The translations under genes were made by a program, and so were the position numbers. This document shows, one piece after another, positions 2,598 through 13,308 of a stretch of DNA of 14,533 nucleotides. The stretch's first letter is position 1, and every line of letters begins with the position of its first letter. This DNA is from Candidatus Acetothermia bacterium (GTDB lineage Bacteria; Bipolaricaulota; Bipolaricaulia; Bipolaricaulales; Bipolaricaulaceae), in NCBI GenBank assembly GCA_023255835.1, contig JAGDVW010000073.1, positions 2,726 through 17,258 on the forward strand, read 5' to 3'. Under the pieces are notes generated by a model that did no database searches, had not been told where the DNA came from, and was given only the letters and a program-made list of their open reading frames with translations.

Positions 2598-3215
2598 CTA
2601 TTCTAGGGGCGAGGTCTTCCGGGCGCCATAAAGGCCGTGTTCGCGGATGAAGCGGTCCACGGCCGCGGGCACGAGCCCTTTCGTGGGCAGTCCCAACCGA
2701 TAGCGCCTCCGCACCTCCGTGGAAGAGAGGGCGATGGGCTCCATCTCCAAAAAGTGAATCTCAGCGCGATCAAACGGAGGTTTCCGAAAAACCGCAAGAT
2801 CCACACCCGGCCGGGGAGCAACGATGAAGGGACACAGGGTCAAAAGCCTCTGCCAATCGTGCCAAATTTCTATTTGGGAGAAAATATCGGCTCCTACGAT
2901 GTAGGCCACCCCCTCAGGATGCTCTTGCTTTAGGAGGGCGATGGTATCCACGGTGTAAGCGGGGCCGGGCCGATCCAACTCCACCCTGGACACCGAAAGC
3001 CCGGGGTTCCCGGAAATCGCCAACTTCACCATTTCGTAGCGCAGCTCTCCGGGGACCCCATCGGCCACTTCCCGGTGCGGCGGTTGCCCCGTGGGGATGA
3101 AGAGGACCTCCCGCAAGGCGAATTGGCGCAAGGCTTCCTCCGCGACCCGCAGGTGCCCAATGTGGACGGGGTTGAACGTTCCGCCGAAAAGCCCAATCCT
3201 ACCCGCTAAACTCAA
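2598..3215 (-). CDS. nadD: Nicotinate-nucleotide adenylyltransferase
   Basis: NadD transfers AMP from ATP to nicotinate mononucleotide, giving nicotinate adenine dinucleotide, the penultimate step of NAD synthesis. The 205-residue product has the nucleotidyltransferase motif GGTFNPVHIGH at residues 11-21, the second family motif SSTEVR at 164-169 (usual form ISSTxIR), and the typical IPTGQPPH segment near residue 40. I chose the TTG at 3213-3215 because GGAGGG lies 7 nt upstream and it leaves only six residues before IGLFGGTF. The start overlaps the end of obgE by 17 nt. It ends 21 nt before infC. nadD next to obg is common, but the usual partner rsfS is absent here, since infC follows directly. 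Confidence 0.96.
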   Translation of the reverse strand: MSLAGRIGLFGGTFNPVHIGHLRVAEEALRQFALREVLFIPTGQPPHREVADGVPGELRYEMVKLAISGNPGLSVSRVELDRPGPAYTVDTIALLKQEHPEGVAYIVGADIFSQIEIWHDWQRLLTLCPFIVAPRPGVDLAVFRKPPFDRAEIHFLEMEPIALSSTEVRRRYRLGLPTKGLVPAAVDRFIREHGLYGARKTSPLE

Positions 3216-4464
3216 GGGTTTTCCCTCCGATTTTCACCGGGGTCCCCGGTTGTAACCCCCGCCGCCGCAGCGCCCTCACCACCCCTAGCCGATCCAATTC
3301 GTCCCAAAGGTATTCCCGGGCATCGGGGGTGGAGAGATCCAGCCGGCCCACGAGGCCCTCCACCGCTGGGCCCCTCACCTCCCAACCCTCCTCCCCCTGG
3401 ATCACCTCGTAGGGAGGTGGCCCGGGGGTGAGGTCCCAAACCTTTCTCCGCGGCCGCTCCTCCACCTCCTGGGGAAGGGCCGAAAGCCTTTCCCACAAAA
3501 CCCCAACAAGCTCCTTTACCCCTTCCCCGGTGAGGGCGGAAACGGGATGCAAAACTATCCCCTCTTTGGCAAACCGCTCCTTTTCCTTCTCCACCTGGTC
3601 TTTGGTGAGGAGATCGATCTTGTTCCCCGCCACGATTTCCGGTTTTCGGCTGAGCTCCTCCCAGGCCGCGAGCTCCTTACGGATGGTGAAATAGTCGGAA
3701 AGGGGATCGCGGCCCTCCGTCCGGGCGAGGTCCACCATGTGCAAAAGGATTTTGGCCCGGGCCGCATGGCGCAGGAATTTATCCCCCAAACCCCTGCCCT
3801 CATGGGCCCCCTCGATGAGCCCGGGCAGATCGGCCATGACAAAGCTTTTCGTCTCGTCCACCCAGACCACCCCTAAATTGGGAACGAGGGTGGTGAAAGG
3901 ATAAGCCGCCACCTTGGGCTTTTTGTCAGAAACCCGGGCCAGGAGGGAGGATTTCCCCACGTTGGGAAAGCCGATGATCCCCACATCGGCAAGGAGGCGC
4001 AATTCCAGGCGGAGCCAGCGTTCCTCCCCGCGTTCCCCGAATTCTCGAATGCGCGGGGCTTGTCGAACGGAGGTCACGAAAGACCGGTTGCCCCGGCCGC
4101 CCCGGCCGCCCTTGGCCACCACCACCTCCTGCCCCTCCTCCACGAGGTCAGCGAGGATCTCCCCGGTGTGCAAATCCCGGACCACCGTGCCCACCGGAAC
4201 AAAAATGACCAGGTCCTCCCCGCGCTTCCCTTGGCGGTTATTGGGGCCACCGGGGCCGCCGTCCTCGGCCCGAAAATGTACCTGCTGATGAAAATGGGAG
4301 AAGGTGTTGACCGAGCGACTGGCCCGGAGGATCACGTCACCACCGTCTCCGCCGCAGCCGCCGTCCGGGGATCCTTTGGGGTTATAACGGGTGCGATGAA
4401 AGCTGATGATCCCATCCCCGCCTTTTCCCGCGGCTACATGGATGACCGCTTCGTCGAACTGCAC
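3199..4464 (-). CDS. obgE: GTPase Obg/CgtA
   Basis: Obg is a ribosome-associated GTPase needed for 50S maturation. All three domains are present in 421 residues. The glycine-rich Obg fold spans about residues 1-157, with repeated GG turns such as KGGDG and GGCGGDGGD. The G domain spans about 158-330, with G1 GFPNVGKSS (165-173), the switch segment AYPFTT (188-192 region), G3 DLPG (212-215), G4 NKID (281-284) and G5 SAL (309-311). A C-terminal OCT domain spans about 360-421, with GLVGRLDLSTPDAREYLWDE. I chose the GTG start (4462-4464) because MQFDEAVIHV matches the family N-terminus; the SD (AGGA) is weak. It follows rpmA by 9 nt, the standard rpmA-obg arrangement, and overlaps nadD. Confidence 0.98.
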   Translation of the reverse strand: MQFDEAVIHVAAGKGGDGIISFHRTRYNPKGSPDGGCGGDGGDVILRASRSVNTFSHFHQQVHFRAEDGGPGGPNNRQGKRGEDLVIFVPVGTVVRDLHTGEILADLVEEGQEVVVAKGGRGGRGNRSFVTSVRQAPRIREFGERGEERWLRLELRLLADVGIIGFPNVGKSSLLARVSDKKPKVAAYPFTTLVPNLGVVWVDETKSFVMADLPGLIEGAHEGRGLGDKFLRHAARAKILLHMVDLARTEGRDPLSDYFTIRKELAAWEELSRKPEIVAGNKIDLLTKDQVEKEKERFAKEGIVLHPVSALTGEGVKELVGVLWERLSALPQEVEERPRRKVWDLTPGPPPYEVIQGEEGWEVRGPAVEGLVGRLDLSTPDAREYLWDELDRLGVVRALRRRGLQPGTPVKIGGKTLEFSG

Positions 4465-4473
4465 GCGACGATC

Positions 4474-4734
4474 CTATTTCCCCTCCCCCAGAGGGATCAC
4501 GTTCACGTAGATGCGTTTGTGGCCGGCGAATTCCACAAGGCCGGTGGTGGTGGCGTAGATGGTGAAGTCCCGGCCCATTTTCACCCCGCGGCCGGGGTAA
4601 AACTTGGTCCCCCGCTGGCGGACGATGATGCACCCGGGCCAGACCAGTTCCCCGCCGAACCGCTTCACCCCCAGCCGCTTCCCCGGGGAATCGTGGACGT
4701 TTTGGGTGGAACCGCCGCTCGCCTTGTGCGCCAT
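4474..4734 (-). CDS. rpmA: 50S ribosomal protein L27
   Basis: L27 is a 50S protein whose N-terminal tail reaches the peptidyl transferase centre. The product is 86 residues, normal for the family. The N-terminus [12 protein letters not shown] is the short form seen in E. coli (MAHKKAGGST). The cleavable presequence found in Firmicutes L27, which ends in a FF-A type site cut by Prp, is absent. Other family segments are [27 protein letters not shown] and GRDFTIYA. The ATG at 4732-4734 has a perfect SD 6 nt upstream that contains the stop of the preceding Prp-like gene. It lies between the Prp-like gene and obgE, as usual. Confidence 0.98.
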
Positions 4735-4740
4735 ATCCCG

Positions 4741-4750
4741 TCACCTCCTA
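4741..4750 (-). promoter_or_regulatory. rpmA Shine-Dalgarno containing the prp-like stop codon
   Basis: The minus strand reads TAGGAGGTGA, 6 nt before the rpmA ATG. This is a full anti-SD match, and its first three bases are the TAG stop (4748-4750) of the upstream Prp-like gene. Ribosomes ending on that gene therefore stop directly on the rpmA entry site, which suggests coupling. Confidence 0.7.
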
Positions 4751-5068
4751 GACGAGGACATCGAGCCCCACTTCCCGCACGGCTATCTTGCCGGGCCGAT
4801 CCTGGGCCAGGGCCCGGAGGCCCAAAACCATGGTCTCCATGATCGCGTCGATCTCCCGATCCAAAAAGAGGTCGGACCGGTCCACCCGGAAGCGGAGGAC
4901 CGAGCCCTCGCGGGAGACCTCGGGATCGAGGTGCAGGTAATGCTTCATCCCCAGGATGGGGGCCTCCACGAGCATGCTCGCGGCCAACCCCTCCGGGGAA
5001 TCATCCCCATAGAGGGTGACCACCTGCACCCGCCCCTCGTCGTCCCGCTCGATCAAAACCTCAACCAT
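4748..5068 (-). CDS. Prp-like (YsxB family) protein lacking the catalytic residues
   Basis: The gene lies between rplU and rpmA, the standard place of the cysteine protease Prp, which trims the L27 presequence in Firmicutes. The 106-residue product matches Prp at the N-terminus (VEVLIERDDEGRV, Prp type IxVxIxRDxxGxI) and at the C-terminus (DAIMETMVLGLRALAQDRPG, Prp type ILxTxVLGLxxxxxxYP). In the centre the Prp catalytic His of the GHA motif is replaced: G21 is followed by Asp-Asp. The DIVCA segment is missing and shortened to GLAAS. The protein has no cysteine at all, and its only histidines are at 43 and 46. A protease function is therefore unlikely. The start overlaps rplU by 8 nt, with GGGAG upstream. 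The family call rests on position plus end-motif similarity; an unrelated small protein is the alternative. Confidence 0.75.
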   Translation of the reverse strand: MVEVLIERDDEGRVQVVTLYGDDSPEGLAASMLVEAPILGMKHYLHLDPEVSREGSVLRFRVDRSDLFLDREIDAIMETMVLGLRALAQDRPGKIAVREVGLDVLV

Positions 5069-5387
5069 CGCTCTCCCGCTCGATGGCCAAAATCCTCGTG
5101 CGCATGAAGGGCTGGCGATGCCCCTTCTTGCGCCGATAGCCCTTTTTGGGCATGAACTTGAAGATTATGACCTTGGGGAGTTTCCCCACCTCCAAAACCT
5201 CCCCCACCACGCGCACCCCCCGAAGGTAGGGCCGGCCCACCTCCACGCGCTCGCCGTTTCGGAAGAGCAAAACCCGATCAAAGGTGATCCGCTCGCCCGC
5301 TTGAACCCCGGGGATGAGCTCGTGGACCACCTCCAGGCCGGGCTCCACGAAATATTGCTTGCCACCTATCTCCACGACGCCGTACAT
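5061..5387 (-). CDS. rplU: 50S ribosomal protein L21
   Basis: L21 is a 50S protein that binds 23S rRNA. The product is 108 residues, the usual size of about 100-105. Family segments are YGVVEIGGKQYFVEPG at the N-terminus, then FDRVLLF, VGRPYL, and the basic C-terminal KKGYRRKKGHRQPFMRTRI. The ATG (5385-5387) follows GAGGTGA with good spacing. It lies 33 nt downstream of metG, the widest gap in the operon, and overlaps the Prp-like gene by 8 nt. L21-Prp-L27-Obg is the common bacterial order; metG directly in front is not. Confidence 0.98.
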   Translation of the reverse strand: MYGVVEIGGKQYFVEPGLEVVHELIPGVQAGERITFDRVLLFRNGERVEVGRPYLRGVRVVGEVLEVGKLPKVIIFKFMPKKGYRRKKGHRQPFMRTRILAIERESDG

Positions 5388-11559: not shown

Positions 11560-13308
11560 CTACCCCCCGATGGGCAAGATCAAGGAAACCTCCCCATAAA
11601 CCACGGACCCCGGGAACCTCTGGGAAACCGAGTCCACACCGTATAGCCAGGCCTCGCCCATCAATTGGGAGATGGGATCGACCGCGAAAAGCTCGACAGT
11701 CAAGGTGTCGTAGGTGGGGATCCCCTCGATGTAGTCGAGGAGATCCTCGAGGCCCTTCAAAGTTGGGGCTGGTTCGCCCTTCTCCCGCAATCGCGGCCCG
11801 CCATAGGCCCTAAGCTCCACATAAGGGGTGTCCAAATCGCGGGGCACGCGGATTGCGCCCTCCAAAGTCCTGGTCTCCCCCCGCCAAGTCCGCACCTCCA
11901 CCGTGAATTGGATCGCCTCGCCCGGCTGGTAAGAGGAGCGATCGGTGCGAAGATCCAGGATCTCCACCGCGGAAAAACCCTTGCTCACCTCGGCCTCCAG
12001 TTCCACCGCGGTGAGCAAGGGGTCGCGGAACTCGTTGTAAGCGAGGACATCAAGGACGAGGGCGGCCTCCCAGGGGATGTAGACCGCCAAATCCGAGGTG
12101 GAGAGGACCACGTTCTCCCGGGTGAACGGGCGGGGAAGGCCGCGGCCGTTGATGGTGTACTTCACCCGCGCCGTTCCCGGGCCGATGCGGTTGAGGGTGG
12201 CGTCCACGGCCTCCACCCCCGCCACGTAGAAAAGGAGCGGGGAAAGCCGGGGCTCGTCCACAAGCTGCACCTGGAACTTCCCCGTGGCCTCCCCAGCCAC
12301 CGTGAACCTCGCCTCGATGGGGAGGGGGCGGCGGTCCGTGCGGCCGGCGATCCCCGGCCAGCGGTCCACGAACACCCCGCCCCGCAGCTCCGTGAGCGTC
12401 CCGAATTTGTAGGAGACGTCCATGGCCGCCACCGTATCCAAGATGGCCGCCCCGGTGAGGAAATAACGACAAGGCCCGCTGAAAAGGAAGGGGTGGCCGA
12501 AGGCCAGGATTTTCTCATCCTCCACCAAGGTGACCGTGCCCAAGGCCCCTATGGTGAAATCGCCGAGGCTCAGGGCCACCCCCACCGGGGCGCCCGGCTG
12601 AAATCCCAAGGATTCCCGGCCCTGCCCCGCCGGGGCCGAAAGGATTTTGGTGAACCCAAGCTCGGAAAACCCGGGAAGCCTCCGGTGCCAAGGGGGGAGG
12701 AGCCCCAAAATGGGGTGATCAAGACGCCCTAAATCCACCCCTTCCTCCAAGAGACGCAAGGCCCGGGAGGAAAGGCCGCTGGCCACAAGCGGGACGGAGA
12801 TGGGCCAAGCCACCAGGGCCCCGCTGGGCACCTCCTTGGGAGGAGCACCGGCCAAAATGACCCGCTCGATCCCCAAAGCCCGGAGGTTTTGGTCCTCCGG
12901 AACGGGGATTTCCTCTTCCCCTAGCTCCGGAAGGAGCTGGAGCATGGACTCGATGGGGGTGACCAAGCCCAAAGGCTTTTCCCGGTCCAAGGCCCAGGTG
13001 GCGGCGCGGGAGAGGGCCCCGGCGAGCTTGTCCTCAAAATAAACAGGGCTCCCGGACATCCCCTGGGCGATGCCCCCGGAGCGCTGGATGGCCTCCCCAA
13101 AAACCCGGACCACAATGAAATCGTTGCGCTCACCGGGCTCATCCAAAACGTCCACCACCTCCACCTCGAACCGGGAGATCTCCAGCCCCTGGACCACGGT
13201 GAGGCCGAATCCCTTCATCCCCGGCTTTATTTCCTTCAAAGAGATGGTCTCAGTGGCCAGCGCTCCGAACGCGATAAAGGCCAAAATAAAAGCTATCAGC
13301 TTTCGCAT
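11560..13308 (-). CDS. Secreted SpoIVB-like (S55) peptidase-family protein, permuted motif order
   Basis: The 582-residue product starts with a Sec signal peptide (MRKLIAFILAFIAFGALA, cut probably after residue 18). Residues about 22-125 match the C-terminal half of the SpoIVB S55 domain: ISRFEVEVVDVL, then SGGIAQGMSGSPVYFEDKLAGA with the presumed nucleophile Ser85, then LGLVTPIESML. Residues about 250-275 match the block that comes first in SpoIVB: IGALGTVTLVEDEKILAFGHPF, with presumed catalytic His272. The two blocks are thus in reverse order from SpoIVB. The position of SpoIVB's third residue (Asp, 15 before the Ser) is Phe70 here. A beta-rich C-terminal part follows, with an Ig-like stretch (about 445-490, DRSSYQPGEAIQFTVEVR). 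ATG 13306-13308 has GGAGGGG 2 nt upstream and overlaps sucC by 13 nt. No PDZ domain is evident. Activity and substrate are unknown. Confidence 0.85.
   Translation of the reverse strand: MRKLIAFILAFIAFGALATETISLKEIKPGMKGFGLTVVQGLEISRFEVEVVDVLDEPGERNDFIVVRVFGEAIQRSGGIAQGMSGSPVYFEDKLAGALSRAATWALDREKPLGLVTPIESMLQLLPELGEEEIPVPEDQNLRALGIERVILAGAPPKEVPSGALVAWPISVPLVASGLSSRALRLLEEGVDLGRLDHPILGLLPPWHRRLPGFSELGFTKILSAPAGQGRESLGFQPGAPVGVALSLGDFTIGALGTVTLVEDEKILAFGHPFLFSGPCRYFLTGAAILDTVAAMDVSYKFGTLTELRGGVFVDRWPGIAGRTDRRPLPIEARFTVAGEATGKFQVQLVDEPRLSPLLFYVAGVEAVDATLNRIGPGTARVKYTINGRGLPRPFTRENVVLSTSDLAVYIPWEAALVLDVLAYNEFRDPLLTAVELEAEVSKGFSAVEILDLRTDRSSYQPGEAIQFTVEVRTWRGETRTLEGAIRVPRDLDTPYVELRAYGGPRLREKGEPAPTLKGLEDLLDYIEGIPTYDTLTVELFAVDPISQLMGEAWLYGVDSVSQRFPGSVVYGEVSLILPIGG

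Follow-up and report, generated by a model that had tools for sequence, protein, structure and literature searches.

Genes for the ribosomal-processing protease Prp are generally placed between rplU and rpmA, which encode ribosomal proteins L21 and L27. In Staphylococcus aureus, pre-cleaved L27 leads to growth defects, and a catalytically inactive C34A variant of Prp was found with L27 on pre-50S particles (passages of PMC9405229). The same passages propose a chaperone role of Prp for L27 (section 3.3.2), at a time when, by their account, bacteria had no defined chaperone specific for a ribosomal protein, and Prps that coexist with a short L27 are already known from spirochetes, Thermotoga maritima and others (PMC9405229, passages). 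Here we analyse a stretch of 14,533 nucleotides (nt) from Candidatus Acetothermia bacterium (contig JAGDVW010000073.1; NCBI places the name Candidatus Acetothermia in Candidatus Bipolaricaulota), hereafter the window, which carries between rplU and rpmA a Prp-like gene without a catalytic site, termed pseudo-Prp. The L27-chaperone role is an open proposal in the passages of PMC9405229, and a natural site-less Prp beside an L27 that requires no cleavage makes the question directly testable. In the open-access literature, subscription papers being outside its scope, we found no report of a natural Prp lacking the catalytic residues.

The Prp-like gene of the window

The pseudo-Prp open reading frame (ORF) occupies positions 4748-5068, on the minus strand like all window features given below, starts with ATG and encodes 106 amino acids (aa), none of which is cysteine. 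When aligned with intact Prps of the same phylum, the protein has Gly-Asp-Asp (residues 21-23, positions 5000-5008) in place of the catalytic GHA, with Asp at the position of the catalytic His, and a gap where intact Prps carry their catalytic Cys within a D-x-x-C-A stretch; the alignment places this deletion at residues 28-29 (4982-4987). The core motif LDREIDA (residues 69-75, 4844-4864) is retained. Its L69, R71 and E72, together with M1, R8, D9, Y44, L45 and R64, are invariant across all 32 genus representatives that lack the catalytic pair. The original prediction, made from the sequence alone, had described exactly such a Prp-like protein, with GHA turned into Gly-Asp-Asp, the DIVCA-type stretch gone and no cysteine, and is borne out by these alignments.

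Single-model scores for the protein were low. Pfam PF04327 gave 17.1 bits (E 0.0068; curated cut-off of 27 bits not reached) and the NCBIfam Prp model 12.3 bits (E 0.14; cut-off of 135 not reached), although the two intact proteins of family f3 (see below) that were tested likewise fell below every NCBIfam Prp cut-off. PF04327 scores of eight relatives ranged from 12.7 to 92.9 bits, with single examples at 92-93 for f3, 68 for f9, 34.5 for f4, 28 for f8, 22 for f2, 17 for the window, 16 for f6 and 13 for f7. At a lax threshold the model matched 37 of 60 relatives, 7 of them above the cut-off, and the window protein used as query matched 51 of the 60. Weak PF04327 scores on their own are little proof, however, because the lax threshold also yielded matches in the controls Caulobacter, Bacteroides and Methanosarcina (3/6 matches above the cut-off).

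A sequence search of the Protein Data Bank (PDB) with the window protein alone found no match, and Prp was reached by profiles only, compared with hhalign and hmmsearch. A profile built from the window protein and 20 others that likewise lack the catalytic pair (21 in total) matched residues 1-102 of S. aureus Prp (E 0.0034 and 0.005), and hhalign related the pseudo-Prp profile to the intact Prps of the phylum at 99.9%. Moreover, when the best 1000 chains from Foldseek were re-aligned with the predicted structure of the window protein, the top seven PDB rows were all Prp chains, and the model has the predicted Prp fold bb-a-bb-a-b. The profile and structural similarity to Prp that had been named as a check on the idea was thus found by hhalign, hmmsearch and structure prediction alike. 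Homology to Prp, the predicted fold and the loss of the catalytic site are shown by these data, and the window ORF is probably a pseudoprotease descended from Prp.

The gene is tightly fitted between its neighbours. Its start overlaps the end of rplU (5061-5387, assigned by profile matches and ORF calls) by 8 nt. Its stop codon TAG (4750-4748) shares AG with the rpmA Shine-Dalgarno AGGAGG (4749-4744), so that the first bases of the element read from the sequence as AGGAGGTG (4742-4749) belong to both, in keeping with the overlap of stop codon and ribosome site noted earlier. The L27 encoded by rpmA (4474-4734; profile matches) starts directly at MAHKASGG without a cleavable presequence, which is not present with all Prps. 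A presequence can be excluded in the window because an in-frame TGA (4743-4741) stands two codons upstream of the rpmA start, a finding that confirms the direct start noted earlier.

Could the ORF be an artefact of sequencing, misassembly or chance? The window's genome is a draft of 90 contigs and 83% completeness. However, the same gene, 90-98% identical, is present in all 7 other available genomes of the genus, and is therefore not a sequencing error; the gene recurs in 87 of the 100 genomes surveyed below, its ratio of nonsynonymous to synonymous substitution rates (dN/dS) is far below 1 and its predicted structure is that of Prp. We reject this explanation and give it practically no chance.

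Distribution, decay of the site and phylogeny

The survey covered 100 genomes of the phylum, the set being the same whether searched by class or by phylum, with L27 loci located by phmmer; completeness reaches at least 90% in 38. A prp or pseudo-prp gene was found in 87, including all 38 of the best quality, and in 87 of the 93 genomes with rpmA it holds the same operon position. Of the 13 genomes without it, six form family f5 and have rpmA, and in the other seven (G010, G020, G036, G064, G065, G071 and G095) no rpmA was detected either. Family f3 (8/93) keeps GH and D..C and has an L27 presequence ending FDLQLF; the L27 frames of G038 and G067 read MSKFRFDLQLF before AHK. Families f1, f2, f4, f6, f7 and f8 (78/93) have neither motif, with no His at the catalytic position in any of the 78, and their L27 starts at MAHK or MATK. 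In f5 (6/6 genomes, loci L191-L196) the prp gene is lost altogether and L27 starts directly; the gap between rplU and rpmA is 15-29 nt in five, and G044, the remaining genome, has an rplU partly masked by Ns, whose end adjoins rpmA. Family f5 thereby offers a natural contrast against which any second function of Prp can be viewed. Family f9 is the single genome G068 (gene at L222, 1309-1644, plus strand), which keeps GH, whereas Cys is replaced by Gly and Asp by Thr. Its L27 frame offers a possible start, MLKFDRMMVF, ahead of AHK, and GGAGG, resembling a Shine-Dalgarno element, stands 9 nt upstream of it. G068 is an apparent intermediate, in which Cys is lost and the neighbouring L27 seems to carry a degenerate extension; L27 may also start internally there.

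The expected joint loss of catalytic pair and L27 presequence in relatives is thus found. Relatives with intact Cys and His and a presequence, which the original prediction would have taken as a sign of error, do exist (the eight genomes of f3); error is nevertheless not indicated, as these belong to a different lineage and the state of the window is common to 78/93. The phylum holds a graded series, from intact Prp through loss of Cys with a degenerate extension (one genome only) and loss of both residues to loss of the gene, which can be read as a record of the joint dismantling of the protease and its substrate's presequence.

The site has degenerated differently from family to family. At the His position stand Asp in 31/37 f1, Met, Ile, Leu or Val in 28/32 f2, Glu in 3/4 f6, Ser in f8, Ile in 2/2 f7, and Gly and Glu in the two f4. 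The G21-S38 interval measures 18 residues in f3 and f9, 11-12 in f1 and f7, 12-13 in f2, 15 in f4 and f8 and 19 in f6. Across families, identity is lower in the catalytic segment than in its flanks, for f3 and f4 32% as against 54% and 62%; within f3 the corresponding values are 76%, and 72% and 75%.

A main tree was built from RpoB, Obg, L21 and L27, with 23 genomes from within the phylum plus 6 outgroups (2/29 rows lacking Obg). No ORF above 900 aa that could be a candidate rpoC was present in the approximately 5.8 kb after rpoB of the window's genome (L252), rpoC itself not having been searched for, and therefore RpoB alone was added. The tree resolves clade I (f3, f4, f6, f8 and f9; support 97/98) and clade II (f1, f2, f5 and f7; 100/98). 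An earlier quick tree had covered 44 of the 93 rpmA genomes, with each genus of f1 and f2 represented once, together with 10 of the 16 outgroup loci available; it leaves out four genomes with short Obg, and G044 has no L21 match. Five approximately unbiased (AU) tests were run, with uncorrected p values and with the quick tree seen beforehand. Placing all families without a working site in one group apart from f3 and the outgroup was rejected, both including f9 (p 0.0193) and excluding it (p 0.0449). Not rejected were single clades of f4+f6+f8+f9 (p 0.128), f4+f6+f8 (p 0.214) and f3+f9 (p 0.495), so that clade I may hold one loss or several. On the unrooted tree three changes were counted for four states and one for active versus dead; as a count of one fits one or several losses alike, the argument for repeated loss rests on the rooted AU tests. 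The working site was taken as ancestral because other phyla have it (passages of PMC9405229). On that footing at least two independent inactivations with retention of the gene are the best reading, supported though not certain.

With the catalytic segment removed, a tree of the remaining Prp core (43 proteins, only 84 columns; Prps of the phylum only) also recovered clade I (100/99.8), which fits vertical descent of pseudo-Prp, likewise supported and not certain. Re-import of an intact prp into f3 from outside the phylum was considered and is not supported, since the core tree joins f3 with f4, f6, f8 and f9 and the flanks of f3 are f4-like; the tree holds no Prp of another phylum, so the exclusion is not full.

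A further observation concerns L27 itself. An NGRD near its N-terminus is present in 16/16 clade I genomes and 70/79 named loci. In clade II, to which the window's rpmA belongs, it is replaced by NVHD in 55/77 genomes; the rest are otherwise changed, one having no pattern match. As f5, without the gene, shares the change, there is no evident link to pseudo-Prp.

Selection and possible functions

Pseudo-Prp is kept under purifying selection. Pairs without a usable dS or with too high a dS were excluded, leaving some genera with fewer pairs. In the window's genus the median dN/dS was 0.060 for pseudo-Prp, 0.099 for L21, 0.051 for L27 and 0.115 for Obg. Medians for pseudo-Prp in other genera were 0.036 (f1g13), 0.059 (f2g37), 0.118 (f2g18) and 0.110 (f2g28), and the intact Prp of f3g22 gave 0.092. 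In intact f3g22 the catalytic segment is more constrained than the rest (0.038 vs 0.119), and in two f2 genera with dead forms the contrast is clearly reversed (f2g18, 0.216 vs 0.091; f2g28, 0.245 vs 0.084); it is small or absent in f1.

These values bear on the idea that the gene is a slowly decaying remnant, whose coding sequence is kept solely for translational coupling of rplU and rpmA and whose protein has no function. The catalytic segment is indeed eroded, one family has deleted the gene and the pseudo-Prp stop codon is interlocked with the rpmA ribosome site. However, constraint on the amino acids is near the level of ribosomal proteins in several genera and residues are identical across 32 genus representatives. 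Moreover, coupling alone would not conserve a protein, and rplU and rpmA do without a gene between them in f5 and at 79 of 80 named-genome loci. These loci were the best 80 of 586 with a window-like L27, chosen by L27 similarity and not at random; in 79 the rplU-rpmA gap is at most 92 nt, leaving no room for a gene, and the one locus with the gene is from this phylum. We consider a functionless remnant improbable.

A second possibility is that the protein is still a protease with another nucleophile or substrate, such as FlhB. Other bacteria are known to combine a Prp with a short L27, and for the Prps of such presequence-less bacteria FlhB is a proposed substrate (passages of PMC9405229). However, the window protein has no Cys, and no Cys, His or Ser occupies the columns in which one residue reaches at least 85% of the 32 genus representatives, although Thr79 and acidic residues are among such columns. 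FlhB (PF01312, E up to 1e-5) had no match in any of the 100 genomes, the 38 that are at least 90% complete included; four control genomes were positive. Because FlhB is found in 0/100 genomes and no well-conserved Cys, His or Ser is present, another protease activity of pseudo-Prp is unlikely, and we would give it a very slim chance.

The explanation we favour, at a probability of about 0.6, is that pseudo-Prp is a pseudoprotease retained after presequence loss for a function other than cutting, most likely as a partner of L27 for the 50S subunit. The ancestral Prp would have cut the presequence from L27. The presequence would then have been lost in most of the phylum, so that cleavage was no longer needed, an order of events that is our proposal. 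The catalytic segment (His, Asp, Cys and mobile loop) may subsequently have been altered differently in different families, the remainder staying under selection if Prp also has a cleavage-independent task. Pseudo-Prp would most likely be an acidic partner that binds the L27 made from the next cistron and helps its delivery to the late 50S subunit. Purifying selection and the probable repeated inactivation with retention suggest a non-proteolytic role of the kind first raised, in ribosome assembly or as an L27 chaperone. The isoelectric point (pI) is 4.56 for pseudo-Prp and 10.3 for L27, and the gene lies directly upstream of rpmA. An acidic protein whose gene directly precedes that of L27, and which has outlasted the protease activity, fits a possible chaperone; position and opposite charge are nonetheless weak evidence, as intact Prps share both. 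A more far-reaching version, which we hold tentatively and at slightly less than even odds, is that an old non-proteolytic function of Prp, probably as dedicated L27 chaperone or 50S assembly factor, has outlived the protease, which was switched off independently at least twice in the phylum, and that pseudo-Prp is a natural separation-of-function form.

Several points weigh against the L27-partner explanation. Constraint is weaker in f1g5 (dN/dS 0.202) and f2g39 (0.279, with a dS of only 0.08). The contrast between catalytic segment and rest is small in f2g37 (0.074 vs 0.051), and in f1 constraint on the segment comes close to that on the remainder (f1g1, 0.052 vs 0.057; f1g13, 0.043 vs 0.028; f1g5, 0.209 vs 0.196). 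One AU test was borderline, five were run without correction and the outgroups are distant. All six f5 genomes lack the gene, and a second function is thus dispensable or replaceable there. Acidity is no mark of the dead form, intact f3 being acidic too (pI 4.2-5.1 in 11 proteins tested, intact ones included). Lastly, the substrate-binding loop is gone, so binding of L27 would differ from the complex of S. aureus Prp with peptide.

Alternatively, pseudo-Prp could be kept for a function unrelated to L27 and already present in Prp; it might exert autogenous control over the rplU-rpmA operon, for instance, or bind another assembly factor such as ObgE. ObgE is linked to 50S assembly, and obgE (GTP1/OBG, 3199-4464; profile match) is the next gene downstream of rpmA. 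The conserved operon position, the rplU overlap and interlock with the rpmA ribosome site, and the identity of the charged residues R8, D9, R64, R71 and E72 in all 32 genus representatives would suit such a function. Against operon control, no Rfam family was matched within the window at the gathering threshold, which rules out known families only, and nothing in this acidic protein is specific for RNA binding. We regard a function apart from L27 as doubtful, though well worth keeping in view.

Elsewhere in the window, residues 25-99 of a 581-aa protein (11563-13305) partially match SpoIVB peptidase S55 (39.5 bits); we know of no spore formation in this phylum.

Comparison with described Prp proteins

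Prp (MEROPS C108, PF04327; S. aureus structures 4PEO, 7KLD and 7JVS) shares with pseudo-Prp its fold, its length and its slot between rplU and rpmA, and an acidic character is common to both (pI 4.45 for S. aureus Prp; passages of PMC9405229). In contrast to Prp, pseudo-Prp has no catalytic His or Cys, the loop with Asp31 is deleted and there is no L27 presequence to cut. TM1457 of T. maritima (1S12) is a Prp that coexists with a short L27 and, unlike pseudo-Prp, keeps its catalytic residues (PMC9405229, passages); its Cys is visible in our profile alignment. The intact Prps of f3 (8 genomes of the same phylum) are 41-44% identical to the window protein (3/8 compared) and have the same locus and conserved core, but possess GH and D..CA; in the L27 beside them, AHK or ATK follows a presequence with FDLQLF at its end. 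The C34A variant of S. aureus Prp is catalytically dead like pseudo-Prp and accompanies L27 on pre-50S particles; it is, however, laboratory-made, and its overexpression harms a host with presequence-bearing L27 (passages of PMC9405229), whereas pseudo-Prp is natural and stands beside an L27 without presequence.
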